A stretch of DNA of 36,108 bases from a virus: positions 1 through 36,108 of IMG/VR virus record IMGVR_UViG_3300021138_000093; one strand, 5' to 3'. Of the stretch, positions 4,965 through 35,127 are shown piece after piece. Under the pieces are notes generated by a model. It did no database searches. It worked only from the letters and a program-made list of their open reading frames with translations, and was not told where the DNA came from. The translations under genes were made by a program, and so were the position numbers. The stretch's first letter is position 1; every line of letters begins with the position of its first letter.

Positions 4965-4975
4965 GACACTTGCTG
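4965..4975 (-). promoter_or_regulatory. Late promoter-like motif before terS
   Basis: CAGCAAGTGTC, one base after the TAG of the zinc-ribbon gene and 30 nt before the terS ATG, with GGAG between. The same layout (motif, about 30 nt, start) is seen at 6446, 26565 and 28524. Confidence 0.6.
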
Positions 4976-4976
4976 G

Positions 4977-5198
4977 CTACTCGTCTTCGGATTTGTCGAT
5001 CGGGTTAAGCGTGCCGTCGGAGATGAACTCGGCGCCACAGAGCATGCACATGCCACCGGGGTAGATGCCATCCACGGTCGTCGCGGTTGATACGCCGTAG
5101 AGGACGTAAAGCAAGTCGCCACCGCACTCACATGGTTCGTCGAGGACTGCGAGGCTCCAACCGATGAGGGTGGCGTAGGGCTCGGTGGATTCACTCAT
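4977..5198 (-). CDS. Small zinc-ribbon protein (73 aa)
   Basis: The start is set at ATG 5198, because a terminator lies just upstream and the late motif sits 6 nt before this ATG. Two cysteine pairs (CECGG near residue 23 and CMLCGAEF near residue 51) form a likely four-cysteine zinc ribbon; the rest is acidic. Function unknown; it may bind nucleic acid or assist packaging, given its place just ahead of the terminase genes. No convincing Shine-Dalgarno apart from AAGGG inside the motif, so it may be leaderless. Confidence 0.7.
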   Translation of the reverse strand: MSESTEPYATLIGWSLAVLDEPCECGGDLLYVLYGVSTATTVDGIYPGGMCMLCGAEFISDGTLNPIDKSEDE

Positions 5199-5204
5199 AA
5201 GCCC

Positions 5205-5215
5205 GACCCTTGCTG
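5205..5215 (-). promoter_or_regulatory. Late promoter-like motif, leaderless-type spacing
   Basis: CAGCAAGGGTC, 6 nt from the ATG at 5198. It follows directly on the T-rich tail of a terminator (5226-5255), as expected if transcription is stopped and restarted here. Confidence 0.65.
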
Positions 5216-5255
5216 AACAAAGCAAAAGGCGCGGCCCCCGAAGAGACCGCGCCTT
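5216..5255 (-). terminator. Intrinsic terminator after the gene at 5270
   Basis: On the reverse strand a perfect 9-bp stem, AAGGCGCGG/CCGCGCCTT (5247-5255 with 5226-5234), is followed by TTTTGCTTTGTT. It closes the unit 6781-5270. Confidence 0.8.
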
Positions 5256-5269
5256 GCTTGTTTCATTTG

Positions 5270-5497: not shown

Positions 5498-5505
5498 GAT
5501 TCTCC

Positions 5506-6414
5506 TTAGAAGCTCAATCCCCACTTGGTGCGCAAGTAGAGCTGGACGTTGGCAACCTCAACCGACGAAAGCGAGCGGTTGAAGAGCAGGTATTCGCAGA
5601 TCTGGCCGTCAAAGTGCAAAGCCTGCGTCTGTGGGGTCTGGATCATGGCCAGTCCGAGCGACCACGGACCCTGCGGCGTGTTGTAGCCCGTGTTGCCAGT
5701 CACCAAAGCGCCACCATTGACCTGGCCGGTCGAGGGGCTGCCGTTGATGAGAGTGACCAGGTTGGGGCCAGCGACTACTCCCGTCACTTCAAGGGCGGAG
5801 CCACCAAAGAAGATTACCTTGCTGGTAGTGAGCTGGAAGTTGCCGTGGTCGTTGGCAGCTTCCATAACGACGTTGTGGTTGTCGACCGAAGGTGGGACGA
5901 CAACCGAGATCATGGTCCAGTTGGGGCTCGTTGCAACATTGGCGATCTGGAAGCCGGTCTGCACGCCGCCGACACCGAACTGAAGGGCGGGAAGGCCGTT
6001 TACCGCGTTCGGAACAAGAACTGGTGAACCAACGCCGAGGAACTGCGTTGCGTTGTTGCCCGTGCCCGACCGGTCGCCCCACTGCATGACTGATGAACCC
6101 GACATAGTCAGCGAGGTGGCGTCCGAGGCGTCAAACCAGGCGAGCATGTTGGGAATAGCGGCGGGAGAAAACGGCGGGATCAAGATGCCGGTGACCGCCT
6201 GCGTGTTGTCGTCAAGGTTCTCGCAAAGCACCTGGGCGCCGACTTGGGGAAGCGAAGGCGCATACACCGGCAACGCGACACCAGTGCCGCCGCGGATGTA
6301 GTTCACGGTCGCAGTGATACCCACTGGGTCCACAGAAATGACGGTGCCAACGCGAGCCTGGCTGGATGGTGTCGAGGAAGTCGTGCCGCCTGATGTGCGC
6401 TTGGGGATAAGCAT
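5506..6414 (-). CDS. LamG/concanavalin-like virion protein (302 aa)
   Basis: ATG 6414 has CGGAG 9 nt upstream; an in-frame extension to 6579 lacks a ribosome site and overlaps the upstream gene. The N-terminus (about 1-90) is Thr/Ser-rich, with an OB/baseplate-like strand pattern (GTVISVDPVGITATVNY). Residues about 95-300 match the LamG-type jelly roll seen in phage fibres: MLAWFDASDATSL, WGDRSGTGNNA, then a C-terminal DGQICEYLLFNRSLS. Such domains bind sugars, so receptor binding is plausible. It lies upstream of the terminase genes, not in the tail cluster. The late motif at 6446-6456 precedes it by 31 nt. Confidence 0.72.
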   Translation of the reverse strand: MLIPKRTSGGTTSSTPSSQARVGTVISVDPVGITATVNYIRGGTGVALPVYAPSLPQVGAQVLCENLDDNTQAVTGILIPPFSPAAIPNMLAWFDASDATSLTMSGSSVMQWGDRSGTGNNATQFLGVGSPVLVPNAVNGLPALQFGVGGVQTGFQIANVATSPNWTMISVVVPPSVDNHNVVMEAANDHGNFQLTTSKVIFFGGSALEVTGVVAGPNLVTLINGSPSTGQVNGGALVTGNTGYNTPQGPWSLGLAMIQTPQTQALHFDGQICEYLLFNRSLSSVEVANVQLYLRTKWGLSF

Positions 6415-6445: not shown

Positions 6446-6456
6446 GACGGTTGCTG
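6446..6456 (-). promoter_or_regulatory. Late promoter-like motif before the LamG gene
   Basis: CAGCAACCGTC, one base after the TGA of the gene at 6458 and 31 nt before ATG 6414, with CGGAG between. Confidence 0.6.
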
Positions 6457-8017: not shown

Positions 8018-8428
8018 TCAGAACTCTGGGTCGATCACGGCTACGGCATCGGTCCAGTCGCCGTATTCGGACAGGTCGGGCGCCTCTTCCCAGTCCTCGC
8101 TAACGAAGCTGTTGTGGCCGAGCATGGCCAAGAGCTCGTCGTAGCGCGGCGGCGGGTTCAGGATCGAAAGGTCTTGTTGAGTGGCGATGTCGAGCACGTC
8201 GAGGGCGGTGACGATCAAGCCCACGCTGAGAGCGTCGGGCACGGTGTTCCAGTCCCAGATCGTGACGGCGGGCACGGTGACGGTGATCCGGTCGCGGTGC
8301 TCTTGGTAGCCCAACGAGTCGTCCACCATGATGCAGGGCCCAGGCTTGGTCGGGAACAGCGGCGGGTTGCAGTTGCTCCATACGACCGTCAGCTGTGCGG
8401 TCTCTTCGGGGGTGAGTTCGGTAGTCAT
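8018..8428 (-). CDS. Hypothetical acidic protein (136 aa)
   Basis: ATG 8428 with AAGGAG 7 nt upstream. The product is acidic, with mixed alpha/beta pattern and many aspartates near the C-terminus (EDWEEAPDLSEYGDWTDA region); no family is recognised. It is transcribed divergently from the replication genes from a likely early-family promoter (8503-8530). A long hairpin sits in its 5' leader, close to the ribosome site. Position opposite the early operon would suit a regulator, but no DNA-binding motif is visible. Confidence 0.65.
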   Translation of the reverse strand: MTTELTPEETAQLTVVWSNCNPPLFPTKPGPCIMVDDSLGYQEHRDRITVTVPAVTIWDWNTVPDALSVGLIVTALDVLDIATQQDLSILNPPPRYDELLAMLGHNSFVSEDWEEAPDLSEYGDWTDAVAVIDPEF

Positions 8429-8855: not shown

Positions 8856-9635
8856 ATGACCAACATCACCCCCTACACCGAGAGCCAGTCACTGGTCCCA
8901 CCAGCAGCAGAAATCCGTGAGCTCTTCAAGCTCAGCGAGACGTTGTGCTCGACCAACTTTGTGCCGGACTCGTTCCGTGGCAAGCCCGCCGAGACCCTGG
9001 CCGCGATCCTTTACGGTCGCGAGCTCGGCATCGGCCCAATGCAGGCACTCCAGCAGATCAACGTCATCAAGGGCAAGCCGTCGGCCAGCCCCGAGCTGAT
9101 GCGTGCTCTGGTGCGTCGCGCTGGTCACAGCATTGCCACCATCGAGAGCACGCCAGAGACCTGCGTTCTCGAAGGCAAGCGTGCCGACGACGGCACCATC
9201 GAGCGCTCGACGTTCACGATCGCCGACGCCCGCACCGCGGGCCTCGCTGGTGGTGGTGCTTGGAAGACCTACCCAAAGGCGATGCTTTTGGCGCGTGCCA
9301 CTTCGCAGCTGTGCCGTTCGTTGTTCGCTGACGTGATCTCTGGCATCAGCTACACGCCCGAGGAGCTCACCAGTATCGACGCCCCGACCATTCGCCCACT
9401 CGACGTGGCTCCCGTGCAGCTTGACCCTGACCTGGTGCCTGCCGCCATTGCCAAGCGCCAGTTGCTTGACGCGTGCGGTGGTGACGTAGACCGCGCTAAG
9501 GCGATCTGGAACGGTCGAGGCATGGAGCCTCTGACCGACGCCGACGTTGATGCTCTCATCGAGCAGGCCACCAACAAGACGCCCGACGACCTCTTTGGCG
9601 AAGTCGAAGAAGCCGAGATCGTGGAGGCCAATTAA
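8856..9635 (+). CDS. RecT-like phage recombination/annealing protein (putative)
   Basis: 259 residues from ATG 8856, with GAGGAG about 10 nt upstream. The middle resembles a phage protein group usually annotated as RecT-like ssDNA-annealing recombinases: FRGKPAETLAAILYGRELGIGPMQALQ, INVIKGKPSASPELM, then Trp-x-Thr-Tyr-Pro-x-Ala-Met-Leu followed by an RA-x-S-x-LCR helix and a YTPEE turn. These proteins anneal single strands during replication and repair of phage DNA. It opens the replication operon; the next gene overlaps its stop (TAATG). The family assignment is from pattern memory and should be tested by profile search. Confidence 0.6.
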   Translation: MTNITPYTESQSLVPPAAEIRELFKLSETLCSTNFVPDSFRGKPAETLAAILYGRELGIGPMQALQQINVIKGKPSASPELMRALVRRAGHSIATIESTPETCVLEGKRADDGTIERSTFTIADARTAGLAGGGAWKTYPKAMLLARATSQLCRSLFADVISGISYTPEELTSIDAPTIRPLDVAPVQLDPDLVPAAIAKRQLLDACGGDVDRAKAIWNGRGMEPLTDADVDALIEQATNKTPDDLFGEVEEAEIVEAN

Positions 9636-9862: not shown

Positions 9863-10590
9863 TGCAGAACTGGTTCAAAGTGTCCAACAACTTCATGGAC
9901 GACCCGAAGATGCTCGAGATCGGAGCCGTCGGCATTTGCCTTTTCTTGGCTGGCATCGGCTATAGCTCGCGCAACCTGACTGACGGACGTATCCCGAAGC
10001 TCATGGCCAAGCGCCTCATCGTCGAGGACGTGTCCGAGGTGATCCCCCAGATGCTCGAACTCGGGCTCTGGGTGGAAGATGGCAAGGACTACATCGTTCC
10101 TGCCTACCTCGAATGGCAGACAAGCTCCGAAGAAGTCGCGGCCAAGCGCCAGGGTGCGACCCAGCGCAAGCGCCACCAGCGTCAGCGTGAAGTCATCGAA
10201 GCCGCACCTGCCGAGGATGTTCTCGACGCCGCCGCAGTTCGCCGCCGCGTTGCGGATGTCTGCGACAAGGCAGTTTTTGACGGCGACGCCGAAGCGACGA
10301 TGGACAATTACCGCTACGTCTACGAAGTCCTCGTGCCCCAGGCCGCAGTGAAGTACGCCGACGTTAAAGGCATCGGGGAAGCATCGCTGCTCAACAGCGT
10401 TCTTCTGCACGCCGCCGCCACGTTCTTTGGCTCCGACATTGACCCCACGTCAATCCGTCGTCTTTCAGCGTTGCGCCGTGACCACGGCTTCCGCACCATC
10501 CAATACCTGCCCGTCGCCGCTGCTGGTGCGAAGGGTGACCCCATCAACTACCTCACCAGCATCTTGAAGAAGGAGAAGGCCAATGCCTGA
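9862..10590 (+). CDS. Replication initiator-like protein (DnaD/RepA-type N-terminus)
   Basis: 242 residues. The N-terminus WFKVSNNFMDDPKMLEIG is typical of phage replication initiators and DnaD-like proteins, and is followed by a winged-helix-like region with GRIPKLMAKRLIVEDV and a WQ/basic stretch (QRKRHQRQRE, about 105-116). The C-terminal half is helical and may contact the helicase. TAATG coupling upstream and an 8-nt overlap with the helicase gene downstream. It would recognise the origin and load the helicase; inferred from context. Confidence 0.65.
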   Translation: MQNWFKVSNNFMDDPKMLEIGAVGICLFLAGIGYSSRNLTDGRIPKLMAKRLIVEDVSEVIPQMLELGLWVEDGKDYIVPAYLEWQTSSEEVAAKRQGATQRKRHQRQREVIEAAPAEDVLDAAAVRRRVADVCDKAVFDGDAEATMDNYRYVYEVLVPQAAVKYADVKGIGEASLLNSVLLHAAATFFGSDIDPTSIRRLSALRRDHGFRTIQYLPVAAAGAKGDPINYLTSILKKEKANA

Positions 10591-11614
10591 AAACCGCCCA
10601 CAATCAGTTGTGCGCAACGAAATCCCAGGCTTTAAGGACCTGCGCGCTGCACGCCTATCTGAAATAACTGAACCGATGATGGCTCGACTGGAACTCGCCG
10701 CCGAGTTCCCCGACGCCAACATCGAGCCAACCGGTATCCAAGAACTCGACGACGTAGTGCGCTTCCAGCCCGGTCGCCTTTGCGTGATCGGTGGCCGTGA
10801 AGGTGCCGGTAAGTCGGCCCTGGCCTTGCAGATGGCACGCTACATGTCGAGCCGTGGCAAGTCGGTGCTTTACCTCTTGACTGAGATGACCATCGAGGAA
10901 GTGGCTGAGCGCATCGTTGCGAACACGTCCCACATTCCGCTTTGGCAGATCCAAAAGAGCCCGACCCCAGAGCAGCGAGCCAAAGTGCGAGGCGTGCTCG
11001 AGTGGTTCGGTTCCAACACCGACCTGACCATCGTCGAAGTCCAGGGGCAACCGATCGACAAGATCGTTCACCGTGTCCAGGTCTGGGCGTCGCACCAGTC
11101 CAATGGCGTCGGGGCTGTCTTCATTGACAACCTTTGGGGCCTTACCGGTGCGAGTCGTGTCAGTGGCACCGCCTCCGAGGTCAGTCTCGGGATGGGTGAA
11201 GTCACCCGCCAGGTCGCCAGCCTCTCGTTGCCAAAGGCGAGCGGTGGCGTTGATTGTCCGGTGTTCTTGCTTCACCACCTCAACCGCGAAGCTGCTAACG
11301 GACGCACGCCGACAACCGCCGCACTCGGTGGATCGGACCAGATTGGATACTGGGCCAGTCAGGTGATCCTTGTCACCGAGCAAGCTGCACTCGGCACTAC
11401 CGGCGACGTGTTCGACAAGTCAGGGACGCACGCCTTGCACCTGACCAAGAACCGCGGTGGCCGCGCTGGTGTGACCATTCCTCTGACCTTCGTTGGCGAG
11501 CAGATGCGTTTCGAAGGTGTCGGCCCCGCCGTGCCCTTCGCAAAGCCCGCCGTTGCAAACGTCGAAGCCGAGCGCCAGTACCGGACCCGTCTGGCTGAAC
11601 TTCCGGCCATCTGA
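10583..11614 (+). CDS. DnaB-type replicative helicase core
   Basis: 343 residues. RecA-fold ATPase: TGIQELDDVV lead-in, Walker A IGGREGAGKS (69-78), Walker B VFIDNLWG (about 179), an LLHHLNREA motif in place of the usual LSQLNR, and an arginine-finger region LTKNRGGRAG. The N-terminal DnaB collar domain is missing or reduced to about 45 residues, as in some phage helicases. It unwinds DNA at the phage fork. Overlaps the initiator gene by 8 nt. Confidence 0.85.
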   Translation: MPENRPQSVVRNEIPGFKDLRAARLSEITEPMMARLELAAEFPDANIEPTGIQELDDVVRFQPGRLCVIGGREGAGKSALALQMARYMSSRGKSVLYLLTEMTIEEVAERIVANTSHIPLWQIQKSPTPEQRAKVRGVLEWFGSNTDLTIVEVQGQPIDKIVHRVQVWASHQSNGVGAVFIDNLWGLTGASRVSGTASEVSLGMGEVTRQVASLSLPKASGGVDCPVFLLHHLNREAANGRTPTTAALGGSDQIGYWASQVILVTEQAALGTTGDVFDKSGTHALHLTKNRGGRAGVTIPLTFVGEQMRFEGVGPAVPFAKPAVANVEAERQYRTRLAELPAI

Positions 11615-11672: not shown

Positions 11673-12527
11673 ATGGAATCCGACGCCCCATTGTGGGAGG
11701 CCCTTGCCGAGGCCCGACACGCCAACAATGACGCCCTCGTAGCGTCTTTTCGTGCTCAGATCGTCGAGCACCACCTCGGCTTTTTTATCAACTACGCCCG
11801 CGCCAATGCGTTCGCTTCGTGGAGCGAAGACCAGGTCACCGAATACCTGCACGAGATCGTCTTGGTCGCACTCGCCAAAGTGGACGCCTACGACCCCACC
11901 CGCGGCGCCAAGTTCGTGACACACGTCAAGCCATACCTTCAGCCAGTGCGCTGGAAGCTCGAGGGCAACGCTGCTCCGATCCGAACCGGCTACGAGACCC
12001 AACGCCTCCACGCCCTCATTCGACGCCGCCAGTCCGAAGCGATGGGCGAGGGTATTGAGCTTTCTCTCGAAGACCTGGCCGCCCAGCTCAGCGAAGCCCA
12101 CGGAAAGTCCATCGGTATCGAACGCGTGCGTCGGATCGTCGAACGCCCCCGAGTGGTATCCGGCGACGAGGTGATGCCATCCACTGACGACTTCACTGTG
12201 TTTGAGACCGTCACAGACGATCTCGACATCGAGAGCGCCTTGCTGGAACAAGAGGACCGCGATGCCACGAGCCAAGCGGTGCAGGAGGCTCTCGCCAGCC
12301 TTGATCTCACCGAGATTGAGGCGTTCATTGTTGCCGAGGTTTTTATGGCGGAACCACGCAAAGTCGTGGGTGGCGAAGTGGTCGCCCGTGGTCCGTTGTC
12401 AGACCGAGAGGTTGCCCAGGGCTTTGCTGATCCGAAGGTCAAGCCCAACGACCTGCGAGAACTCGAACAAGGCGTGCGCGACCTTCGCGAGGCCCTTGCG
12501 GAAAAGCTCAGATTTTTCCTGGGGTGA
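11673..12527 (+). CDS. Sigma-70-family transcription factor
   Basis: 284 residues; ATG 11673 is chosen because the promoter/-10 element lies 7 nt before it and earlier in-frame codons run through the helicase gene. Region 2 is recognisable at about 30-103: EHHLGFFINYARAN, a long linker, then VDAYDPTRGAKFVTHVKPYL and PVRW, corresponding to the FDP-x-RG-x-KFSTYA-xWWI motif. A region-3-like helix is at 130-160 (SLEDLAAQLSEAHGKS). Region 4 is at 203-275: ALASLDLTEIEAFIVAEVF, then LSDREVAQ and LRELEQGVRDLREAL, matching the recognition helix pattern. It should direct host core RNA polymerase to phage promoters. The divergent sequence and its own promoter suggest a dedicated temporal role. Confidence 0.8.
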   Translation: MESDAPLWEALAEARHANNDALVASFRAQIVEHHLGFFINYARANAFASWSEDQVTEYLHEIVLVALAKVDAYDPTRGAKFVTHVKPYLQPVRWKLEGNAAPIRTGYETQRLHALIRRRQSEAMGEGIELSLEDLAAQLSEAHGKSIGIERVRRIVERPRVVSGDEVMPSTDDFTVFETVTDDLDIESALLEQEDRDATSQAVQEALASLDLTEIEAFIVAEVFMAEPRKVVGGEVVARGPLSDREVAQGFADPKVKPNDLRELEQGVRDLREALAEKLRFFLG

Positions 12528-12753: not shown

Positions 12754-12827
12754 GGTCCGTTAGCGCAGTTGGTTAGCGCGCCACCCTGTCACGGTGGAGG
12801 CCACGGGTTCGAGTCCCGTACGGATCG
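12754..12827 (+). tRNA. tRNA-Asp (anticodon GTC)
   Basis: Complete cloverleaf: acceptor GGTCCGT with ACGGATC (one G-U pair), D-arm AGCGCAGTTGGTTAGCGC, anticodon loop CTGTCAC giving GTC, and T-loop GGTTCGAGTCC. The discriminator is G. CCA is not encoded (CCG follows). The phage arm repeats begin 7 nt downstream. Probably a phage-carried tRNA; it is full length, unlike the tRNA-Gly half nearby. Confidence 0.93.
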
Positions 12828-12833
12828 CCGCTC

Positions 12834-12854: not shown

Positions 12855-12980
12855 TGGCTACGAATGGCTGCGAATCACTGGGTATTCCTGGGTATCGAAA
12901 AAGTGGGCCGTTATTGGGTTATCCCAGAAACCACAAGGGATTTCTAGGATTTCGGGGGTCTCAATCCGACCGCGCCCACT

Positions 12981-13019
12981 GCTTGGGAAGCTGATGCTCT
13001 ACCATTGAGCTACGCCCGC
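12981..13019 (-). other. attP: attP core: 5' half of a tRNA-Gly gene
   Basis: On the reverse strand, from 13019 down, the sequence is a tRNA-Gly 5' half: GCGGGCG acceptor strand, TAGCTCAATGGTAGAGC D-arm, and an anticodon arm ATCAGCTTCCCAAGC with anticodon CCC. Similarity to a tRNA ends 2 nt after the loop; no T-arm follows. Arm repeats flank it, and xis/int follow. Together this is the layout of a tyrosine-integrase attachment site. Most tRNA attP cores carry the 3' half; here it is the 5' half. TATAAAA lies about 20 bp upstream on the same strand and could be a promoter for the hybrid tRNA after integration. Confidence 0.72.
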
Positions 13020-13024
13020 TAGAG

Positions 13025-13046
13025 CCCTTATTTTATAAGGGTTTTT
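13025..13046 (+). terminator. Intrinsic terminator beside attP
   Basis: CCCTTAT/ATAAGGG with loop TTT, then TTTTT. It would end forward transcription from the 12565/tRNA-Asp unit before int. Confidence 0.75.
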
Positions 13047-13087
13047 GGCACTACAATGGCTTCCAGATGCTTGCCGCTTCCGCCCGT

Positions 13088-13108
13088 TGCACACATTTTG
13101 CACACATT
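13088..13108 (+). repeat. Paired integrase arm-type repeats, right
   Basis: TGCACACATT at 13088-13097 and 13099-13108, again 11 bp apart. Mirror partner of the left pair. Confidence 0.75.
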
Positions 13109-13249
13109 GGGGGGAATCACGCACAACTGGGAACCACTGTCACTAGAGATTACTCGCCTGGGCGCAGTGGTGACGGCGTATGCACTGGCGAGCGCGATGG
13201 GGATACTAAGACCGGTTGCCTTTTACAAGCAGCCGGAAAGAGATACACA

Positions 13250-13426
13250 ATGGACAAGAAGTGGATGACCTACCAGGAAGCGATGGACTATCTGGGCGTC
13301 TCGCGATCCACCCTCGACCTCTGGCGCCGTGGCGGGCGCCTGACCTTTGCGAAGCTTCCCAACGGGCAGCTTCGTATCCGCACCGCGGACCTCGATACCT
13401 GGCTCGAAGATTTGGTGGTTGCCTAA
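13250..13426 (+). CDS. xis: Excisionase-like helix-turn-helix protein (58 aa)
   Basis: ATG 13250 with GGAAAGAG upstream. A single MerR/excisionase-type domain: MTYQEAMDYLGVSRSTLDLWRRGGRL, then KLPNGQLRIRTADLDTWLE, the canonical pattern. It would bend attP DNA and bias recombination toward excision. Its TAA overlaps the integrase ATG (TAATG), and it lies next to attP. No clear promoter could be placed; the upstream 140 bp contain the arm repeats and no gene. Confidence 0.82.
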   Translation: MDKKWMTYQEAMDYLGVSRSTLDLWRRGGRLTFAKLPNGQLRIRTADLDTWLEDLVVA

Positions 13427-16013: not shown

Positions 16014-16015
16014 GG

Positions 16016-16381: not shown

Positions 16382-16383
16382 AG

Positions 16384-17533: not shown

Positions 17534-17544
17534 GACGCTTGCTG
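17534..17544 (-). promoter_or_regulatory. Late promoter-like motif before the endolysin
   Basis: CAGCAAGCGTC, 7 nt from ATG 17526; no separate Shine-Dalgarno. Confidence 0.65.
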
Positions 17545-18029: not shown

Positions 18030-18040
18030 GACGCTTGCTG
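18030..18040 (-). promoter_or_regulatory. Late promoter-like motif before the HNH gene
   Basis: CAGCAAGCGTC, 2 nt after the tail-gene TAG and 7 nt before ATG 18022. Identical in motif and spacing to the copy at 17534. Confidence 0.65.
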
Positions 18041-25532: not shown

Positions 25533-25936
25533 TTTGGGTCCGGCACGGTCTCTCCAAATCCAAGCGTGGCCAAAGCATCGGCACAAAACGACATGAATGC
25601 GGCGGTGTCCACGGTGGGGTCTTTGGCAATAGCCATGACCAACTCGTTGCCGAACACGGCACCGGCCAGCTCCACCACTACCTCGATGTCGCCTTCGATC
25701 AATCGCCGGGGCAAGTCCGCCACAGCGTCGGGGCCGAGGTTCTTGTAGATGGCGAGAATGTCATTCGTCGAAAGCGACGCCACGATTTCGTAAGTCTTCG
25801 GGATGCGCTCACCAGCGGCATTGAGGTCGTAGACGATCTCTTGCCCGGCCTCGGTCTTTTCGAGGTGGTGATGCCACCCAATGCAGACGGTTTCCGTTAG
25901 CTGCTTGGGTGGCTCACTCGTGTTGTAGTTCTTCAT
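25520..25936 (-). CDS. Tail assembly chaperone (G part, 138 aa)
   Basis: ATG 25936 with GGAGGACGCC upstream. A helical, acidic product lies between the major tail protein and tape measure, matching the lambda G position. Its C-terminal codons CCA AAA sit in a classic slippery heptamer, and the overlapping -1 frame stays open for 101 codons. Most ribosomes should end at 25520; a minority make the GT fusion. Confidence 0.82.
   Translation of the reverse strand: MKNYNTSEPPKQLTETVCIGWHHHLEKTEAGQEIVYDLNAAGERIPKTYEIVASLSTNDILAIYKNLGPDAVADLPRRLIEGDIEVVVELAGAVFGNELVMAIAKDPTVDTAAFMSFCADALATLGFGETVPDPKAAA
25532..25538 (-). other. Programmed -1 ribosomal frameshift site
   Basis: Reverse strand reads C CCA AAA in the zero frame (X XXY YYZ). 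A -1 slip gives CCC AAA and enters the 25227 frame exactly. The site lies 12 nt before the zero-frame stop. Confidence 0.8.
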
Positions 25937-25967: not shown

Positions 25968-26534
25968 TTAAGCAGCTGGCTTGGTGACGTAGACCGTGTA
26001 GCCACCGACAGGGCCCGAGTCCGAAGGCGTCAAGATTTCAAACTCAACGGCAACTTCGGTGTACTTGGTGTTGTCGAAGCTCAAGGTCTGCGCAGCCGAG
26101 TAAATAACGCGCTCGGCAACAAGGGCCACCGACTGGCCGCCAGGCCAGGGGCCGACAACCACGAGGCTGAACTTGGGAGCAGGTCCGATACCGGCAGGGG
26201 CGAACGAGTCGGCGTTGGTGCCGGTCGTCATCGTGCCACGGATCAAGTCCGAAAGGCGGGCCTCGGTCACTTCACGCAGCGTCGTTTTAACGGTGGTGGC
26301 AATGGCCGAGATCGAGGCGTCGAGGTCGCGAGCCTGCTGCTGGCTGGTGGCCTTAACCCAGGTAGGCGTGTCCACAATGTCCACGGCGGCAGTGGTCTCA
26401 CCCACCGAGCTCCAGCCCGAAAGGGTGCCAGCCATCAAAGAGGCGAGGTCGGCGGCAGCGGGCAGTGCCGTGCCGTAGGGGGCGACGTAGATGTGGCCGG
26501 GGCCCTGGATGAGGTTGTCTACTGACGAGGACAC
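25968..26534 (-). CDS. Major tail tube protein (188 aa)
   Basis: GTG 26534 with AAGGAG 8 nt upstream. N-terminus GPGHIYVAPYGTALP is typical of siphovirus tail tube proteins; the rest is a beta-barrel-like Val/Thr-rich sequence (EVAVEFEILTPSDSG near the end). Located between the tail terminator and chaperone genes. It polymerises into the tube. Preceded by a late motif 30 nt upstream, in line with high expression. Confidence 0.85.
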   Translation of the reverse strand: MSSSVDNLIQGPGHIYVAPYGTALPAAADLASLMAGTLSGWSSVGETTAAVDIVDTPTWVKATSQQQARDLDASISAIATTVKTTLREVTEARLSDLIRGTMTTGTNADSFAPAGIGPAPKFSLVVVGPWPGGQSVALVAERVIYSAAQTLSFDNTKYTEVAVEFEILTPSDSGPVGGYTVYVTKPAA

Positions 26535-26564: not shown

Positions 26565-26575
26565 GACGGTTGCTG
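26565..26575 (-). promoter_or_regulatory. Late promoter-like motif before the major tail protein
   Basis: CAGCAACCGTC follows the TAG of the upstream gene without a gap and lies 30 nt before GTG 26534. Confidence 0.65.
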
Positions 26576-27438: not shown

Positions 27439-27764
27439 CACGCACCGGCCTTCGTCAGCGTGCAAGAGATGTGGTGAATGGCGCCGGTTGGTCCACGACG
27501 AACTGCGACGCTTTCGACGCGGTAGTTCGTGCCCGCGTCGTCTTGAATAACGCACTTGTGGTCGACGACCGTGGCGGCAGGTAGAAAGGCTTGCCACTGC
27601 TCAACGGTTTGCCAAGTGCCGTTCACGTACTCCTGGGCGTTCTTTTGGTGAAGGTTGCCGACAACGGCGTCGGTGACTTCGTAGGTCGTGACAGGAACGC
27701 CCTCGGCGTCGCGGTCGCCGACGGTGGGCGTCAATACCTTGAGTGCTTGGTTGGCGCCGATCAT
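27438..27764 (-). CDS. Head-tail stopper-like protein (108 aa)
   Basis: ATG 27764 overlaps the adaptor stop (ATGA). Small beta protein: VLTPTVGDRDAEGVPVTTYEVTDAVVG, then FLPAATVVDHKCVIQDDAGTNYRVESV, typical of head-closure/stopper proteins. Position in the connector series supports this. Confidence 0.7.
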   Translation of the reverse strand: MIGANQALKVLTPTVGDRDAEGVPVTTYEVTDAVVGNLHQKNAQEYVNGTWQTVEQWQAFLPAATVVDHKCVIQDDAGTNYRVESVAVRRGPTGAIHHISCTLTKAGA

Positions 27765-28492
27765 TTGCGCAACCGCCGGTACGGGGCGGCGAGGGTGAGG
27801 CACTGGCCGCCGAGGTCTTGCGCCGCCTTGAGCTTGCGAGGAACTGGGTAGCCGTCGGGTCCGAGGATGGTGCCGGGCACGAGCGTGGCCGAGAACTCCC
27901 CAGCAATGTTCATCGACTGAATGCCCCGGGGCAGCGCCAAGTTCTCAGCGTTGGATTTGGTGTGGATGCCCCACGCGATTGCCTTCGCCAGTCCCACGGG
28001 CAAGTCGCTCGACAGCTGAAAGGTTGGGTTTGCTTGGACTTCGTTGTAGGGGGTGTAAAGGCCACCCGATCCGTAAGGCGTGTAGCCGCCGGTGTAGGTG
28101 ATGTCGATGCCCTGGACCAAGAAGTAATCGATCGAGTTGGCGTTGAGCCCGTCCGATGTGTAAGCCGCGCCAATGCCGCTGTCGATGCCGTAGTCCGTGA
28201 ATCCGGCTGGATTGACCGGTTCACTCGAGCCGCCGTAGAGGTCCCAGATCAGGTAGACGGCATCGTTGTCGAAACGCCAGCCAGCGGGAACAGTAGTGAT
28301 CGGGGTAGCCCGAGGGTAGAGCACGCCGTCTTTACTGATGGGGAAGATGTGCTCGTTGTAGCTCTGGCTGACGAGCCAGCGGCCAAGTACGTCTTCGAGT
28401 GACGAAACTACATAGTTGTGTAGCGCCTCGAAGTTGTCGGGCGCGGTCGAGCCGGTAAAGAGTTCGTAGTCTTCGGCGGAGATCAGGGTCAT
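27761..28492 (-). CDS. Head-tail adaptor-like protein (243 aa)
   Basis: ATG 28492, with GAGG 7 nt upstream. N-terminus MTLISAEDYELFTGSTAPDN plus the helix ALHNYVVSSLEDVLGRWL match the adaptor (gp6/gp15) fold; a Gly/Tyr-rich insertion in the middle (about 85-165) makes it longer than usual. First gene after the capsid terminator, preceded by a late motif 31 nt upstream. Confidence 0.72.
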   Translation of the reverse strand: MTLISAEDYELFTGSTAPDNFEALHNYVVSSLEDVLGRWLVSQSYNEHIFPISKDGVLYPRATPITTVPAGWRFDNDAVYLIWDLYGGSSEPVNPAGFTDYGIDSGIGAAYTSDGLNANSIDYFLVQGIDITYTGGYTPYGSGGLYTPYNEVQANPTFQLSSDLPVGLAKAIAWGIHTKSNAENLALPRGIQSMNIAGEFSATLVPGTILGPDGYPVPRKLKAAQDLGGQCLTLAAPYRRLRK

Positions 28493-28523: not shown

Positions 28524-28534
28524 GACCCTTGCTG
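28524..28534 (-). promoter_or_regulatory. Late promoter-like motif restarting transcription after the capsid terminator
   Basis: CAGCAAGGGTC directly follows the terminator T-run and lies 31 nt before ATG 28492. The same terminator-motif pairing occurs at 5205-5255. Confidence 0.7.
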
Positions 28535-28540
28535 CAAAGC

Positions 28541-28581
28541 CAAAAACCCCGGCCACCTCAAAGAGATGACCGGGGTTTGGC
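28541..28581 (-). terminator. Intrinsic terminator after the capsid gene
   Basis: Reverse strand: CCAAACCCCGG stem with CCGGGGTTTTTGG, loop about 17 nt, then TTTG. It ends the head operon. Confidence 0.85.
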
Positions 28582-28637: not shown

Positions 28638-29867
28638 TTAGGCAGGCAGGTGACCAGTGATCACGCAGAAAGCCTCGGGGCGGACGTTGGTCAGAGCCAC
28701 ACGGATCGAACCACGGAAGCGCACGGCGTCTTCCACGAAGTCGGTACCGACGTTCTCCGAAGCGGCCACAGTGATCTGCTGGCGGTTGACCAGCGAGACG
28801 TACTGCGACGAGCCGACGGCGATGCCGCCCCACTCCGAGTCGTCAGCGATGACCATCTGCGGGCACCATACGACGGGCAGGCCCCACAGCGTGAGCTGCT
28901 GGGTCGTGCTGGTCGGCTGGGCGAACAGGTAGGTACCGATCGTCGAAGTCGCGAGCGAGAGAGCCTCGATGAACGACGCCGAAGCCAAGATGTACGCGGC
29001 AGGCGTGAAGGTCTTCTGCACGGCAGTGATGCCCTGGCGGACGGCCTCGATCGCGTTGATGCGCGTCTGGTTCAGGTTGTTGGCGACAACTTCGTAGGTC
29101 AGCGACTGAGCGCGGCCCGAGCCGGTGACGAGCAGCGAGGGGATGCCGTTGGCCGTGTCGGTCGAAGCAACCATCTGAGCGATGAGGTTGTTCTTGATGC
29201 CGTACACGAGACGGTTCTCGATGATCGAAGCGAGCTGAGCCTGGTCGGCGAGCGTCGAGGTGTCAGTGCGGAAGACCGTACCGACCTTCGAAACCGTCTG
29301 CACGAGGCGGGTGAAGGTGATACCCGACTCGGTGTAAGCGGTGTAGTCAGCAGGCGAACCAGCGCGACGAGCGACAGGAGCCGTGTTGTCGGTGAAGCCG
29401 GTCTCAACGAACACGACCACGGTGTCGGACTGAGTGTTCGACTGTGGGATGTAGTTGAGCAGCGTCAGCGGGGCAACAGGCTTCAGCGCAATGTCGGTCA
29501 GGTAGTCCGGAGCGACGATGGGCGACGAGCCAGAGGCACCGTTCGGGTCGGTGAAGATGTCGAGGGCGTCACGAACATCCGAGATGTCGATAACGGCTTC
29601 GAACGACTTGTCACCGTTGAGAGCACGAGCGAAGACACCCGACTCGATGGCCTTGCGGGCAACGGTCGAACGCGTCGCAGGAGCGGCAGCGGGGACAATG
29701 GAGACAGCCGGGGTAGCGGCGTCAAGGGCGGCGAGCGCATTGAGCAGCGAAGTGCGGATGGACTCGGCGGCGTCGAGGGCGACGGTGTCGAGGGTCTCAG
29801 CACCACGAAGCTCGGCAGCGCGGGCGGCCACCTTGTTGAGCTCTGCGAGCAGTTGCTCACGGTTCAT
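28638..29867 (-). CDS. Major capsid protein, HK97 fold (409 aa)
   Basis: ATG 29867 with AAGGAG 8 nt upstream. Residues 1-100 are helical and Ala-rich (the scaffold-like delta domain removed by the protease). Then the HK97 body: IVAPDYLTDIALKPVAPLTLLNYIPQ, ESGITFTRLVQTVSKVGTVFRTD and a C-terminal QITVAASENVGTDFVEDAVRFRGSIRVALTNVRPEAF, the typical end strand. Downstream of the protease and followed by a terminator. The codons are strongly biased, so a long spurious frame appears on the opposite strand. Confidence 0.92.
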   Translation of the reverse strand: MNREQLLAELNKVAARAAELRGAETLDTVALDAAESIRTSLLNALAALDAATPAVSIVPAAAPATRSTVARKAIESGVFARALNGDKSFEAVIDISDVRDALDIFTDPNGASGSSPIVAPDYLTDIALKPVAPLTLLNYIPQSNTQSDTVVVFVETGFTDNTAPVARRAGSPADYTAYTESGITFTRLVQTVSKVGTVFRTDTSTLADQAQLASIIENRLVYGIKNNLIAQMVASTDTANGIPSLLVTGSGRAQSLTYEVVANNLNQTRINAIEAVRQGITAVQKTFTPAAYILASASFIEALSLATSTIGTYLFAQPTSTTQQLTLWGLPVVWCPQMVIADDSEWGGIAVGSSQYVSLVNRQQITVAASENVGTDFVEDAVRFRGSIRVALTNVRPEAFCVITGHLPA

Positions 29868-29892: not shown

Positions 29893-29903
29893 GACGGTTG
29901 TTT
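29893..29903 (-). promoter_or_regulatory. Late-motif variant before the capsid gene
   Basis: AAACAACCGTC, matching the consensus except at the first and third bases, 25 nt before ATG 29867 with AAGGAG between. A hairpin (29912-29942 region, CCGGCCA/TGGTCGG with one G-U) lies just upstream and may act like the terminator at 28541. Confidence 0.45.
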
Positions 29904-29957: not shown

Positions 29958-30959
29958 CTACCGGCGCCAGGGGCGGCGTCGGGTTGATCGGGCCACGGTG
30001 ACCGTTTCAACAGGGGTGACGGTTGCTGCCATTTCCAGGGAGGTCCCCAGAGCGCTGTTGTCGTCGTCTAAGTCACCAGCTTCGAGCGCCGCATCCTGGG
30101 CGTCGTCGGGGTTTTCTACACCAAGCGCGTCAGAGGCCACGTCTTGGGCCACGTCAGCTGCGGTGTCGATGATGGTGAGAAGTTGGAGCACAAGCGACAG
30201 AGCCGCCGTGGTGTCGTCGGACCCGGCGCGAGTGATGATGCCGGTGATGGCGTCGCGGGCTTCTTCGACTGGCGTAGCCACTGTGTATGCACGATCGAAC
30301 ACCTGGGCTGCCTCAATACCCTCAGCACTGAGTGTCTTACGGCGGCGATCTGAGTATTCACGGTAGGACGTAGTCACGGCTTCTTCGACTGGCGTAGCTG
30401 GGCGGATCACGTCTGCGTAAAGGTCGGCAAGGTCGGCCTCGTCGGTGCCGAGTTCACGAGACAGGTCGATCAGGGCCTTCTTCGAGCTCGGGGCATTGAC
30501 CAGGCTCAGCTCGTGGAGGTCCACCTTCGTAAAGACGACGGTGCCGTCCTTGCGTGCGTAGCCGTCAGTCGGGATGAAACCAACTGACACGCCACGGATG
30601 AAACCACCGTCTACGAGGCCCTGCAGTTCTTGGGCGCGGTCGGTGTCGGCAAACACAAAGCGAACCAGTGGGCCCTCGGGCGTGTCTTCGATGCTGACGG
30701 GCTTGCCGACTGGGTCTTTGCTCTGCTGGTGGTATTCGAGAATGCGGAAGTCGTTTGGGGAGACGTGGGCCATCGCACCGCGCGCCATCGTGGTGCCGTA
30801 GGTGTCAATGGTGGCGGCAGTGCCGTCGTCGTAGCCGTAAGCAAGGGCGGTGTAAATCTTGCGGCCTTCGGCGTCGGTCTCGACGCCACGGCTCTGCAAG
30901 CCTTCGCGGATCGTGAGCGTGCGGTTCTGCACCTTGCCCAGGTTCAACTTGTCCATCAT
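29958..30959 (-). CDS. Prohead serine protease (capsid maturation, 333 aa)
   Basis: Two adjacent ATGs (30959, 30956) follow GAGGAG. Protease domain about 20-165: catalytic His77 in EYHQQSKDPVGKP, Ser125 in GVSVGFIP, and LHELSLVNAPSS, as in HK97 gp4/U35 proteases. It removes the capsid delta domain and degrades itself. A C-terminal extension (about 165-333) has helical, acidic sequence and the heptapeptide ATPVEEA twice, 40 residues apart. A late-motif copy lies inside the 3' end. Confidence 0.88.
   Translation of the reverse strand: MMDKLNLGKVQNRTLTIREGLQSRGVETDAEGRKIYTALAYGYDDGTAATIDTYGTTMARGAMAHVSPNDFRILEYHQQSKDPVGKPVSIEDTPEGPLVRFVFADTDRAQELQGLVDGGFIRGVSVGFIPTDGYARKDGTVVFTKVDLHELSLVNAPSSKKALIDLSRELGTDEADLADLYADVIRPATPVEEAVTTSYREYSDRRRKTLSAEGIEAAQVFDRAYTVATPVEEARDAITGIITRAGSDDTTAALSLVLQLLTIIDTAADVAQDVASDALGVENPDDAQDAALEAGDLDDDNSALGTSLEMAATVTPVETVTVARSTRRRPWRR
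30018..30028 (-). promoter_or_regulatory. Intragenic copy of the late motif (protease 3' end)
   Basis: CAGCAACCGTC lies in the coding frame (encoding Ala-Ala-Thr-Val), 150 nt before the capsid ATG. It is exact, but neither fixed distance to a start is met. It may be an upstream capsid promoter or coincidence. Confidence 0.3.
30258..30398. repeat. 21-bp direct repeat in the protease gene
   Basis: The 21-bp sequence at 30258-30278 recurs at 30378-30398, period 120 bp. It encodes ATPVEEA in both places. The sequence between the copies is not repeated. Confidence 0.8.
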
Positions 30960-31106
30960 TTACTCCTCGTTGGATCGGGTCTCGACTACGGCTTCAGCCG
31001 TGACGAGGGGTAGCGCTGCCGACTTGCGGCTGCGCTTGGGGGTTGCCTCAACGACTGGCGTCGGTGCGGTGCGAAGCGGGCGGCACAGAGTGCAGTCGCA
31101 AGCCAT
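30960..31106 (-). CDS. Small Cys-rich basic protein (48 aa)
   Basis: ATG 31106 overlaps the preceding TAA (TAATG), and the TAA (30960-30962) abuts the protease ATG, so the gene fits perfectly into the operon. The N-terminus MACDCTLCRP has three cysteines in CxCxxC spacing, followed by a basic, Pro/Ala-rich stretch. Function unknown; possibly a small head-morphogenesis or zinc-binding peptide. The perfect junctions are the best evidence. Confidence 0.6.
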   Translation of the reverse strand: MACDCTLCRPLRTAPTPVVEATPKRSRKSAALPLVTAEAVVETRSNEE

Positions 31107-31552
31107 TAGAGAACCTGCGGACCAGCGGCGGGAGCGACGGCTTCTTCGACCGCGGTCTTCACTTCGGCAACAGCGGCGTCTACGAGCTTGTCGGCAATTG
31201 GGTTCGACTCGACGGCCTTTTCAGATTCCTTTTCGGCCTTGACGGCGTCCTTGAATGCCTGGGTGTTCGCGAGCTTGGCGACGGCCTTCTGCACAGCGGC
31301 GTCTTTGCGTACCGAGTTCCAAAGCTTCACAGCGTCACGGACGTAGGGGGCTTCCTTGCGCAAGAAGGCCAGAGCAGCGGTGATGGCCGAAGCAGCTACC
31401 GCGGTCTGGGCCGGGAACGCGCTGTGGGCAGCGGCCACCAAAGAGGCAAGCGAAACGCCGCCGCCGGTAAAGGCAGCGCTGAACAAGGCTTCGACGCCAG
31501 CCTGCTTGTGCGGGGCGGGCGATGGGGTCTGGGGAGTGAAAGGTGCGGGCAT
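31106..31552 (-). CDS. Ala-rich helical protein at the head of the capsid operon (148 aa)
   Basis: Start ATG 31552 set by the late motif 6 nt upstream. Pro-rich N-terminus, then Ala/Val-rich helices (about 20-70), then a Lys/Glu/Ala helical stretch to residue 140. It is not recognised. Its place before protease and capsid is where scaffold or minor head proteins can occur, but the sequence does not prove it. First gene of the head operon. Confidence 0.6.
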   Translation of the reverse strand: MPAPFTPQTPSPAPHKQAGVEALFSAAFTGGGVSLASLVAAAHSAFPAQTAVAASAITAALAFLRKEAPYVRDAVKLWNSVRKDAAVQKAVAKLANTQAFKDAVKAEKESEKAVESNPIADKLVDAAVAEVKTAVEEAVAPAAGPQVL

Positions 31553-31558: not shown

Positions 31559-31569
31559 GACGGTTGCTG
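31559..31569 (-). promoter_or_regulatory. Late promoter-like motif heading the capsid operon
   Basis: CAGCAACCGTC, 6 nt from ATG 31552. No Shine-Dalgarno is present, so this copy argues most strongly for leaderless transcription. The 17-bp operator palindrome is just upstream. Confidence 0.7.
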
Positions 31570-31571: not shown

Positions 31572-31600
31572 TTGTGAGTGTCACGGGGTGACACTTATCG
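31572..31600 (+). promoter_or_regulatory. Conventional promoter with an operator as its spacer
   Basis: TTGTGA (31572-31577), a 17-bp spacer that is itself the palindrome GTGTCACGGGGTGACAC (31578-31594), then TTATCG (31595-31600). It faces gene 31618 and backs onto the late motif of the capsid operon. A bound regulator would block it. Confidence 0.5.
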
Positions 31601-32721: not shown

Positions 32722-34723
32722 GCAGCTCGCCCTGGGTGGGCTTGGCAGCTTCTTTCTTGGCCCACTTCACGCGTGCTTCGATGATCGGCCAATACTCTTC
32801 GGTCATCTCGCAACCGCGCCAGTCAAAGCCTTCGAGGATCGCGGCGACGGCCGTAGATCCGCTACCGAGGAACGGGTCGAGCACGGTGCCCCCTGGGGGT
32901 GTGACCAGCTTGACCAAGTAGCGCATCAGGGCAAGGGGCTTGACGGTGGGGTGAAAGTTCTGGGCTTTTGTTGGCGCTGTTTTGTTGATTTCTTTCCGCT
33001 CAATCGAGTTATTCATTGGATAGATAGGCCCATTTGGCAGCCCCCCCAGCCCTGCGTTGCGCTCGGATTTGCTTGCCTTAGCGCAGTAGAAGAAGCGCCC
33101 TGCGTCGTTTGGAAACCCTGCCAGCACTTCCTCGCTTCCGTCGTGGATGACGTTGGCAGGCCAGCGACCCGTGACGGTCGTAGTGCCTGACTTTTCGTTC
33201 TTGTTTCCACCAGTAGTTTCAAAGTTGCCCGAAGTCATTGTCAGGTCGTAGGTGCGCTCTTCGGTCCCAACACGGCTACCGTCAATGTTCAGCGCACCCG
33301 TTCCCCACTCCAGCACGTTTGAGGCGACTGTGCCGGTCAGGGGCTTGCGAGCGACACAGATGGGTTCGTGGGCGGGCTTTAGGGCTGTTCCCCAGCCTTG
33401 CCATTGTTGAGCCTCGGGAGTGGCTGGTGCGGTGATGTCCCATGTTTGGTATTCAGTTTCACCACCGACTGAAGGCAGCGCCGATTTGCCGGTGGTGCTT
33501 CGAGCCTTAGTATCGCTTCCCACCACTTCACGCTCCGCCCCAGCAGCCTTGTCTATCGCCTTGCTCACGTCCAGCGATTTCGGAAAGCCAGAGCCGTAGA
33601 GCCACATAATCTGGTCACGAATCTCGAAGCCAGCGTCCTCGATGGCGACGGTCATTCGGTGGTAGGTGCGAGAGCCGGAGAACGCCAGCAGGTGTCCGCC
33701 TGGCTTTAGCACTCGTAGGCACTCACGCCACATCTCGACGCTGTACGCTATTCCTGTTGCGTCCCAGGTCTTGCCCATAAAGCCCCCGCGCGAACGGTTG
33801 TCACCCAAGAACGATAAAACCTGCGCAGGGAGGACAAGATGATCGAACGACAGTGCCCAGTTTGCGGGGTCAACTACTTGGCTGACCCCGGTCGTCTCAA
33901 ACACGGTCGGCAGACCACTTGTTCCCGAAAGTGTTCCTACGAGCTGCGGGCTAAGAAGCTCGAACGACTCGTCACCTTTCATTGCGCCGTCTGCGGTAAA
34001 GAGATCGAACGCCCCGCGAGCCACGTCAAAGGCAAGCACGGCGCCCAGTTCTGCTCCCGGGCTTGCCACTACAAAGGCCGTTCCACTGGCCTCTCCAAGA
34101 GAGTCGTCGCCGCACCCTATACCGTCACTGAGGCTGGAAGGGTCGGTGCTCGGCGCGGACAGGCCAAAGGCGTCGCGAAGCGCATAGCCGCCAATAACTA
34201 CGGGCACTCCGAGGAGACCAGGCGCAAGTTGTCGAACGCAACCGCACGAGCCTTGGCAGAAGGGCGAGTGTCCCGTGTCTCGAAGTTGGAGGACAAAGTT
34301 GCCGCTGTTCTTGACGGTCTTGGTATCGTTTACGAGCGACAAGTCGGGGTCCGTGGTGATGGCGGCCGCTACATTGGCGTTATTGATTTCGTGCTCGAAG
34401 ACGGGGTTGCTCTCGAAGTAAACGGAACCTACTGGCACGCCGACCCTCGGGTCTATTCCGAACACAACGCGACGCAGGCCCACAACGTCAAGAAGTTCGC
34501 GATCAAACTTGCTGAACTTCGGCGCCTTGGCTACCGCGTTGGTGAGTTGTGGGAGTTGGACTTCAAGAAAGACCCCGCGAAGGCAGTGATCGAAGCCCAC
34601 AGGCGGGCGTCCTGACGTTAGTTCGTACGGGGGGTCGGTCACGATGCTGTCAATGGAGCAGTCGGGGATCTTTTTGAGCTCGGTGAGGCAGTCGCCCTTG
34701 TAAAGGTTTTTAATCTTGGACAT
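32714..34723 (-). CDS. DNA methyltransferase (beta-class N6A/N4C) with an insertion
   Basis: 669 residues in one open frame from ATG 34723, 8 nt after a GACGGT element. Residues 1-37 hold the first half of the domain, ending in the catalytic DPPY (30-33). The domain resumes at GGFMGKTWDATGIAY (about 312), with ECLRVLKPGGHLLAFSG, DAGFEIRDQIMWLYGSGFPKSLDVSKAID and, at the C-terminus, HPTVKPLALM and LDPFLGSGSTAVAA (SAM-binding). The roughly 275 residues between are simply the antisense of the forward homing-endonuclease gene 33839-34615. Normal relatives run directly from DPPYELTS to the FMGK segment. The frame is kept, but activity of the interrupted enzyme is uncertain. It methylates phage DNA if functional. 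Confidence 0.82.
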   Translation of the reverse strand: MSKIKNLYKGDCLTELKKIPDCSIDSIVTDPPYELTSGRPPVGFDHCLRGVFLEVQLPQLTNAVAKAPKFSKFDRELLDVVGLRRVVFGIDPRVGVPVGSVYFESNPVFEHEINNANVAAAITTDPDLSLVNDTKTVKNSGNFVLQLRDTGHSPFCQGSCGCVRQLAPGLLGVPVVIGGYALRDAFGLSAPSTDPSSLSDGIGCGDDSLGEASGTAFVVASPGAELGAVLAFDVARGAFDLFTADGAMKGDESFELLSPQLVGTLSGTSGLPTVFETTGVSQVVDPANWALSFDHLVLPAQVLSFLGDNRSRGGFMGKTWDATGIAYSVEMWRECLRVLKPGGHLLAFSGSRTYHRMTVAIEDAGFEIRDQIMWLYGSGFPKSLDVSKAIDKAAGAEREVVGSDTKARSTTGKSALPSVGGETEYQTWDITAPATPEAQQWQGWGTALKPAHEPICVARKPLTGTVASNVLEWGTGALNIDGSRVGTEERTYDLTMTSGNFETTGGNKNEKSGTTTVTGRWPANVIHDGSEEVLAGFPNDAGRFFYCAKASKSERNAGLGGLPNGPIYPMNNSIERKEINKTAPTKAQNFHPTVKPLALMRYLVKLVTPPGGTVLDPFLGSGSTAVAAILEGFDWRGCEMTEEYWPIIEARVKWAKKEAAKPTQGELPI
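33839..34615 (+). CDS. Homing endonuclease (zinc ribbons, NUMOD3, Vsr/EDxHD-type nuclease), nested antisense
   Basis: ATG 33839 has an excellent GGGAGGACAAG ribosome site. Two zinc motifs at the N-terminus: CPVC(G)...CSRKC (about 7-32) and CAVC(G)...CSRAC (about 48-75). A NUMOD3 DNA-binding helix follows, GHSEETRRKLSNATARALAEG (about 120-140). The nuclease domain (about 147-258) has the Vsr/EDxHD look: KLEDKVAAVLDGLGIVYERQ, GVIDFVLEDGVALEVNGTYWHAD. The gene lies entirely within, and opposite to, the methyltransferase gene; its TGA is the complement of the Ser codon after DPPYELT. It likely cuts methyltransferase genes lacking the insert. Confidence 0.85.
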   Translation: MIERQCPVCGVNYLADPGRLKHGRQTTCSRKCSYELRAKKLERLVTFHCAVCGKEIERPASHVKGKHGAQFCSRACHYKGRSTGLSKRVVAAPYTVTEAGRVGARRGQAKGVAKRIAANNYGHSEETRRKLSNATARALAEGRVSRVSKLEDKVAAVLDGLGIVYERQVGVRGDGGRYIGVIDFVLEDGVALEVNGTYWHADPRVYSEHNATQAHNVKKFAIKLAELRRLGYRVGELWELDFKKDPAKAVIEAHRRAS

Positions 34724-34731
34724 GCACGGAT

Positions 34732-34759
34732 ACCGTCCGCGCTTGTCTCAATGGTGCAA
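34732..34759 (-). promoter_or_regulatory. Early-family promoter of the methyltransferase gene
   Basis: Reverse strand: TTGCAC (34754-34759), 16-bp spacer, GACGGT (34732-34737), 8 nt to ATG 34723. The -35 lies in the end of the RusA gene. Confidence 0.65.
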
Positions 34760-35110
34760 TGGGCTAACCGCGATCCGCACTAATCCGTCGCCACCAACCA
34801 CGAGCACTGGCTGACGTATCTCGACGAACTCGGCAGTGTCATCTGGCCAACATCCGGCGTCCACCATCCCGTCGATCACGGCTTTGACGACCGTGCCGAC
34901 GTAGTTCATGGGGTCCCGGCGCCCGTTTCTGGCAAACGGCAGCGAGATCGTCACCAGCGAAGGCGGCAGCTCACTTAACCCAGCCGCAACGCACTCGACG
35001 TGGCTACATTGCCGCCACGCTTTGACCAGCTTGGCTCTCTGTGCCCAGTGAAGGTTTCTGTCCCGGTTGGTAGACCACACGTCGGCTGGTGGGGCGAAGG
35101 TGATCTCCAT
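34748..35110 (-). CDS. rusA: RusA-family Holliday junction resolvase (120 aa)
   Basis: Start ATG 35110, 6 nt after a late motif. RusA fold markers: NRDRNLHWAQRAKLVKAW near the N-terminus and the catalytic segment RRDPMNYVGTVVKAVIDGMVDAGCWPDDTAEF with conserved Asp residues and Lys. It resolves four-way junctions during phage recombination and before packaging. Its genome neighbours are the methyltransferase and homing nucleases, away from the RecT-like gene. Confidence 0.85.
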   Translation of the reverse strand: MEITFAPPADVWSTNRDRNLHWAQRAKLVKAWRQCSHVECVAAGLSELPPSLVTISLPFARNGRRDPMNYVGTVVKAVIDGMVDAGCWPDDTAEFVEIRQPVLVVGGDGLVRIAVSPLHH

Positions 35111-35116
35111 GCCAGT

Positions 35117-35127
35117 GACCCTTGCTG
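35117..35127 (-). promoter_or_regulatory. Late-type motif before RusA
   Basis: CAGCAAGGGTC, 6 nt from ATG 35110. It is the one clear late-type copy before a DNA-metabolism gene; resolvases can be needed late for packaging. Confidence 0.6.

Follow-up and report, generated by a model that had tools for sequence, protein, structure and literature searches.

A recurrent 11-bp motif, CAGCAASNGTC, in the IMG/VR virus record IMGVR_UViG_3300021138_000093 (the window, analyzed over its whole length of 36,108 bases) is most likely the late promoter element of a family of small temperate siphophages, and it is probably read by a sigma factor that the phages themselves encode. The observation of the motif was confirmed, and this reading is supported by the motif sequence, its strand bias, its conservation at orthologous genes, a pyrimidine-A (YA) dinucleotide at a fixed offset, a contrast in Shine-Dalgarno pairing between two classes of sites, and a sigma-like protein.

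The window virus is a temperate siphophage, judged by its gene content. A plus-strand early operon holds genes for RecT, a replication initiator, a DnaB-like helicase, the sigma-like protein, tRNA-Asp, a helix-turn-helix protein, and an integrase, and the minus-strand late genes encode the terminase, portal, protease, capsid, tail proteins, and endolysin. The G+C content of 60%, together with weak terminase matches to phages of Microbacterium, Gordonia, and others, suggests an actinobacterial host, and we take the record to be of freshwater origin from its sample numbers. No cultured relatives were found, either by DNA search or by search with the sigma protein; TerL and DnaB gave weak matches alone, all under 30%, and two scans of bacterial genomes for prophage relatives confirmed none. 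The comparison covered two relatives of like size, G004 (IMGVR_UViG_3300006111_000003, 36,450 bases) and G008 (IMGVR_UViG_3300021142_000090, 36,230 bases), fragments besides, and a more distant relative, G006, whose capsid protein is 27% identical.

Distribution and conservation of the motif

The window contains 11 exact matches to CAGCAANNGTC, all on the minus (late) strand, whereas dinucleotide shuffles predict 0.47; in 100 such shuffles the count never reached 11, and among 6-N2-3 patterns in the window this one ranks first by frequency. The exact copies in G004 and G008 are also on the late strand alone, and no palindromy was found in the motif. The original prediction, made from the window sequence, had listed nine of these copies and two variants (3074 and 29893), all of which exist at exactly those coordinates, and had overlooked the exact copies at 25317 and 30018. 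Its description of the motif as belonging to the starts of structural and lysis genes suits many copies, but others serve a RusA-like gene (35117) and, at 18030, a gene that is histidine-rich and HNH-like, and the two overlooked copies lie within genes. Judged by gene content, from which late timing would follow, the motif appears to be placed upstream of late genes only. The preceding gene's stop codon does lie 0–2 nucleotides (nt) 5' of the motif at 26565, 6446, 4965, and 18030, and a scanner recovered both of the intrinsic terminators that had been described immediately 5' of the 5205 and 28524 motifs (Table 1).

G004 carries eight exact copies and G008 seven, mostly at orthologous genes; the original prediction had proposed searching relatives for the motif upstream of the same genes. 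When a weight matrix was built from the G004 and G008 sites only, the 13 window sites occupied ranks 1–13, all on the minus strand. In the window, the gene served at 18030 adjoins that for the endolysin; its homolog lies near terS in G004 and G008, the motif having been kept despite the relocation. Terminator-like hairpins, identified by eye, also precede the motif 5' of the orthologs of the 28524 gene in both relatives. The G008 portal motif (22034) lies 68 nt from the start, and the G008 motif at 27935 precedes a long gene other than the homolog of the virion gene served at 6446. G006 has no motif copies, and no sigma factor was detected in it.

The in-gene copies at 25317 and 30018 are written in the codons xCA GCA Axx GTY in the window, G004, and G008. 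GCA makes up 10–11% of Ala codons, and because this rare codon is kept in all three phages, selection acting on the DNA is suggested; these copies may be additional promoters from which the tape-measure and capsid genes are transcribed. Coincidence of coding sequence was considered for them and is unlikely, since rare GCA/TCA/CCA codons recur in three phages. As a separate observation, G004 has an exact copy at 26023–26033 (8023–8033 of L047) within a tail-terminator-like gene, with no gene start nearby and no counterpart in the other phages.

Predicted start point and leaders

Seventeen sites have no start codon at 6–7 nt and are informative for a start dinucleotide. YA, the usual bacterial initiation dinucleotide, occupied bases 6/7 past the motif in 13 of these (12 of them CA), compared with a background of 9%, and occurred at neither neighboring offset (P about 5e−11 if the sites are independent). 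This signature places the putative transcription start at the seventh, sometimes the eighth, base past the last C of the motif, so that the motif would cover −17 to −7, and it supports the promoter with a constant start point that had been proposed at the outset. In the alignment of 27 sites, information is confined to −17 to −7. A search of the aligned sequence from −62 to −18 for a conserved −35 element found none, with at most 0.27 bit in any column there; its absence had been claimed previously, and indeed nothing is conserved upstream of −18.

The motif-to-start distances in the original prediction (6–7, 30–31, and, for the capsid gene, 25 nt) were reproduced. Once the relatives are added, its two fixed distances widen, and the start codons lie 6–9 nt (near class), 25–32 nt (far class), or 52–57 nt (portal gene) away. 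The predicted leaders of the near class (15 sites) are 0–3 nt, that is, the messages would be leaderless or nearly so, and those of the far class are mostly 19–26 nt (46–51 nt for the portal gene). The contrast in Shine-Dalgarno sites that had been described for these classes was borne out, with a pairing energy of −3.7 kcal/mol in the near class, where random sequence gives −4.1, versus −7.0 in the far class (P 2e−4). For the terS-like gene, the window motif lies 30 nt away with a Shine-Dalgarno sequence, and the G004 motif lies 6 nt away without one.

A diverged sigma factor as the probable reader

The probable reader of the motif, absent from the original prediction, is the 284-residue protein encoded at 11673–12527. 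It matches PHROG 351, “RNA polymerase sigma factor,” in the window, G004, and G008 (1.6e−4, 6e−8, and 2.6e−8, respectively), and aligned with E. coli RpoS and FliA over 220 columns (hhalign, E 3.6e−6); in a PDB profile search, RpoS was the best match, a weak one (E 0.05). The protein is diverged, since Pfam sigma-70 models do not match it. An AlphaFold model built from three sequences had moderate confidence (mean predicted local distance difference test [pLDDT] score 69, predicted template-modeling [pTM] score 0.37); a two-sequence model (pLDDT 47) was discarded as too poor. Foldseek returned 116 matches to the model at E ≤ 0.001. The 50 that were listed are all chains from structures of RNA polymerase holoenzymes or transcription complexes; wherever the chain is named, it is the sigma subunit. 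The predicted fold matches sigma factors across residues 1–284 (Foldseek/VIA), with sigma-70 domains 2, 3, and 4 in order, their relative placement being unreliable at this pTM, and predicted domain 2 superposes on that of sigma-70 with Z 11.4 and 2.1 Å across 96 residues. By sequence homology and predicted fold, then, this protein is a diverged relative of sigma-70.

The sigma-like protein is only 46–52% identical among the three phages, compared with 72 and 69% for the adjacent helicase, and the motif is unchanged. Its most conserved stretch is a helix region with the near-invariant run GYETxRLxALxRRRQSEAMG, which appears to map to the neighborhood of region 3, the reader of the extended −10 in sigma-70. 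A residue-level mapping of the positions reading −12/−11 was dropped, since the alignments differ on a six-residue gap there. The gene is present in all three motif-bearing phages, and G006 has neither gene nor motif; from this co-occurrence and the fit of the element to a sigma factor, the protein probably reads the motif.

In the mechanism we propose, the factor would be made from the early plus-strand operon, bind the host core RNA polymerase, and recognize the −17 to −7 element as a −10 and extended −10 in one, with no need of a −35. Transcription would begin 7 (sometimes 8) nt past the last C of the motif. With a start codon 6–9 nt downstream, the message would be leaderless or carry at most 3 nt of leader; with one 25–32 nt downstream (52–57 nt in the case of the portal), its leader would include an ordinary Shine-Dalgarno site. 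Late genes, singly or in groups, thus in many cases have a motif copy of their own, which in two instances comes right after a terminator.

Features of the window

The coordinates are collected in Table 1. The gene at 17558–18022 had no Pfam match.

Table 1. Motif sites and associated features in the window, with counterparts in two relatives
Position	Strand	Feature	G004	G008
35117–35127	−	Motif CAGCAAGGGTC, 6 nt 5' of ATG, RusA-like gene 34748–35110		17461; CAGCAAGTGTT, 7 nt to ATG
31559–31569	−	Motif CAGCAACCGTC, 6 nt 5' of ATG, gene 31106–31552	Same
30018–30028	−	Exact motif within 3' end of head-protease open reading frame (ORF), 5' of capsid gene	CAGCAACCGTT, same codons, rare GCA	CAGCAACTGTT, same codons, rare GCA
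29893–29903	−	Variant AAACAACCGTC (2 mismatches), 25 nt to ATG, major capsid gene 28638–29867	29245; CAACAACCGTC, 26 nt
28544–28578	−	Intrinsic terminator (scanner) between capsid gene and 28524 motif
28524–28534	−	Motif, 31 nt to ATG, head connector-region gene 27761–28492, straight after terminator	27888	12984
26565–26575	−	Motif, 30 nt to GTG, major tail protein gene 25968–26534	25924; 29 nt	11014; 28 nt
25317–25327	−	Exact motif within ORF 25227–25586, about 75 nt 5' of tape-measure ORF	Same codons	Same codons
18030–18040	−	Motif, 7 nt to ATG, gene 17558–18022 (histidine-rich; HNH-like by eye)	4091; 7 nt	25449; 9 nt
17534–17544	−	Motif, 7 nt to ATG, endolysin gene 16384–17526 (GH25 + PG_binding_1)	17548; 6 nt	3191; 6 nt
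11673–12527	+	Diverged sigma-70-family factor gene, 284 residues, proposed motif reader, 58 bases past helicase gene
10583–11614	+	DnaB-like helicase gene, early operon, immediately 5' of sigma gene
8856–9635	+	RecT-like gene, first of the sigma-bearing operon, on the strand without exact motif copies
6446–6456	−	Motif, 31 nt to ATG, virion gene 5506–6414	5395; CAGCAACCGTA, 29 nt
5226–5255	−	Intrinsic terminator (scanner) immediately 5' of 5205 motif
5205–5215	−	Motif, 6 nt to ATG, small gene 4977–5198
4965–4975	−	Motif, 30 nt to ATG, probable terS gene 4515–4934	6 nt to GTG
3074–3084	−	Variant CAGCAAGTGTG (1 mismatch), 57 nt to GTG, portal gene 785–3016	1102; CAGCAACTGTG, 52 nt

Several other features were observed. 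The portal protein carries a fused C-terminal Mu F-like domain (PF04860 + PF04233). An N-terminal signal sequence is apparent in the endolysin, whose C-terminal hydrophobic stretch precedes RRKK, as though the protein were exported or membrane anchored. A perfect palindrome, AGTGTCAC-GGG-GTGACACT, lies at 31577–31595, immediately 5' of the 31559 motif, where a plus-strand HNH endonuclease ORF begins (PF01844; 31564–32721); it occurs once in the window and may be an operator. The HNH gene is on the plus strand in the window and G004, and its 68%-identical homolog in G008 is on the minus strand (15957–17075), indicating an inversion within the late region. Near the integrase gene, an apparent 5' half of a tRNA-Gly gene stands beside a T-run hairpin, judged by eye (12980–13045 in the window; 12935–13000 in L045), and is possibly an attachment site. 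A complete tRNA-Asp gene is found at 12754–12829 in the window and at 3229–3305 (minus strand) in G004.

Weighing of alternative explanations

Several points weigh against a late promoter read by the phage sigma. Four of the 17 informative sites have no YA, and the in-gene copies mostly lack it at +6/+7, for which coding constraint could account. The near-class spacing spans 6–9 nt, a spread also compatible with a translation signal. Some sites are common by descent; for example, the 31559 region is near-identical between the window and G004, so that this site in G004 is not independent and nominal P values are overstated. The pairing of sigma and motif is drawn from their joint presence in three related phages and their joint absence from one other, and the structural model is of moderate confidence with three sequences behind it. 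Finally, the motif is G+C-rich and resembles no −10 element known to us.

The alternative that survives best, which we nevertheless consider unlikely, keeps the same promoter element and start point but assigns their reading to a host sigma factor helped by an activator from the phage, or to a different DNA-binding protein of the phage, the sigma-like protein having some other role. The phages share further genes that could supply such a protein, for example, the helix-turn-helix protein (13067–13426) and a protein of unknown function (8018–8428), and co-occurrence does not by itself single out the sigma gene. However, no E. coli-type −35/−10 was found in the scanned late stretches and none is conserved in the alignment. 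A single asymmetric 11-bp box at −17 to −7 occupies the position read by sigma regions 2.4/3.0, not the usual activator position, and a protein of sigma-70 fold is encoded by the window phage, with homologs in both relatives.

Far less probable is a translation signal, that is, an mRNA sequence replacing or aiding the Shine-Dalgarno sequence like the start-associated sequences (SAS) of cluster K mycobacteriophages. The near-class distance of 6–9 nt is typical of ribosome-binding sequences, and the cluster K SAS, a repeated motif mostly on one strand, lie 3–7 bp from many start codons (PMC3203893). They contain AGGAG and occupy the ribosome-binding position of non-structural genes (PMC3203893); the present motif resembles them in its nearness to gene starts only, and it serves late genes in two distance classes. 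A sequence of the type GGGATAGGAGCCC, with a Shine-Dalgarno core near the start, was not found here, the anti-Shine-Dalgarno pairing of the near class being at the random level. Furthermore, the motif also lies 25–57 nt from starts with a separate strong Shine-Dalgarno sequence between, the YA offset is fixed relative to the motif and not to the start codon, and copies occur straight after terminators and within genes. An operator or other binding site for a repressor or a replication or packaging protein is scarcely credible: short, dispersed, one-strand sites recall the stoperators of cluster A phages in their distribution, but here the motif goes with gene starts and a fixed start-site signature, lacks palindromy, and is absent in exact form from the early strand.

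Comparison with known systems

If the proposed promoter and its phage sigma are a true pair, they would provide a complete sigma-promoter system, open to testing, in a small temperate phage whose bacterial hosts are uncultured and presumably live in fresh water. The promoter sequence departs from the TATA-like rule for −10 elements: the CAGCAASNGTC box lacks A at −11 and T at −12, and mostly lacks T at −7. On balance we favor the view that the factor is a sigma-70-family member of unprecedented specificity, reading an 11-bp G+C-rich −10/extended −10 box without a −35, giving routine leaderless late mRNAs, and allowing a leaderless/leadered switch at terS between sister phages. Such a compact system would bear both on the opening of a G+C-rich −10 by sigma-70 domain 2 and on the use of leaderless messages for lysis and virion-region genes, and the motif is useful for annotating late genes in related metagenomic phages.

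The late promoters of T4 lack a −35 element, and T4 late transcription depends on the sliding clamp. These promoters, TATAAATA at −13 to −6, are read by the phage sigma gp55, and the present system is alike in its phage-encoded sigma, in having one conserved element, located at −10, and in its many copies 5' of late genes (PMC1524935). The gp55-like mode of a single −10 element without a −35 was found across the aligned sites, with the start placed by YA, whereas the gp55 sequence TATAAATA was not. The element here is longer, G+C-rich, and not TATA-like, it belongs to a temperate 36-kb siphophage, and at about half of its sites the message would have no leader or almost none. Phages phiEco32 and 7-11, both lytic podophages, provide another parallel. 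The sigma of each is a distant relative of the sigma-A family and has an extended −10-like motif of its own, identified by computation (PMC4331800). The motif differs from ours (the 7-11 core is TGATGT). In Actinobacteria, more than 20% of genes are leaderless, with a −10-like TANNNT about 12 bp 5' of the start codon (PMC3160421), and about a quarter of mycobacterial transcripts are leaderless (PMC4633059). The predicted arrangement here is similar in that a −10-position element is sited so that the transcript begins at the start codon, but the element is phage specific, is not TANNNT, and is probably not read by a host sigma. By analogy, the mode would thus join a single −10 element of the T4 gp55 type to the leaderless gene layout that is common among Actinobacteria (PMC1524935, PMC3160421, PMC4633059).

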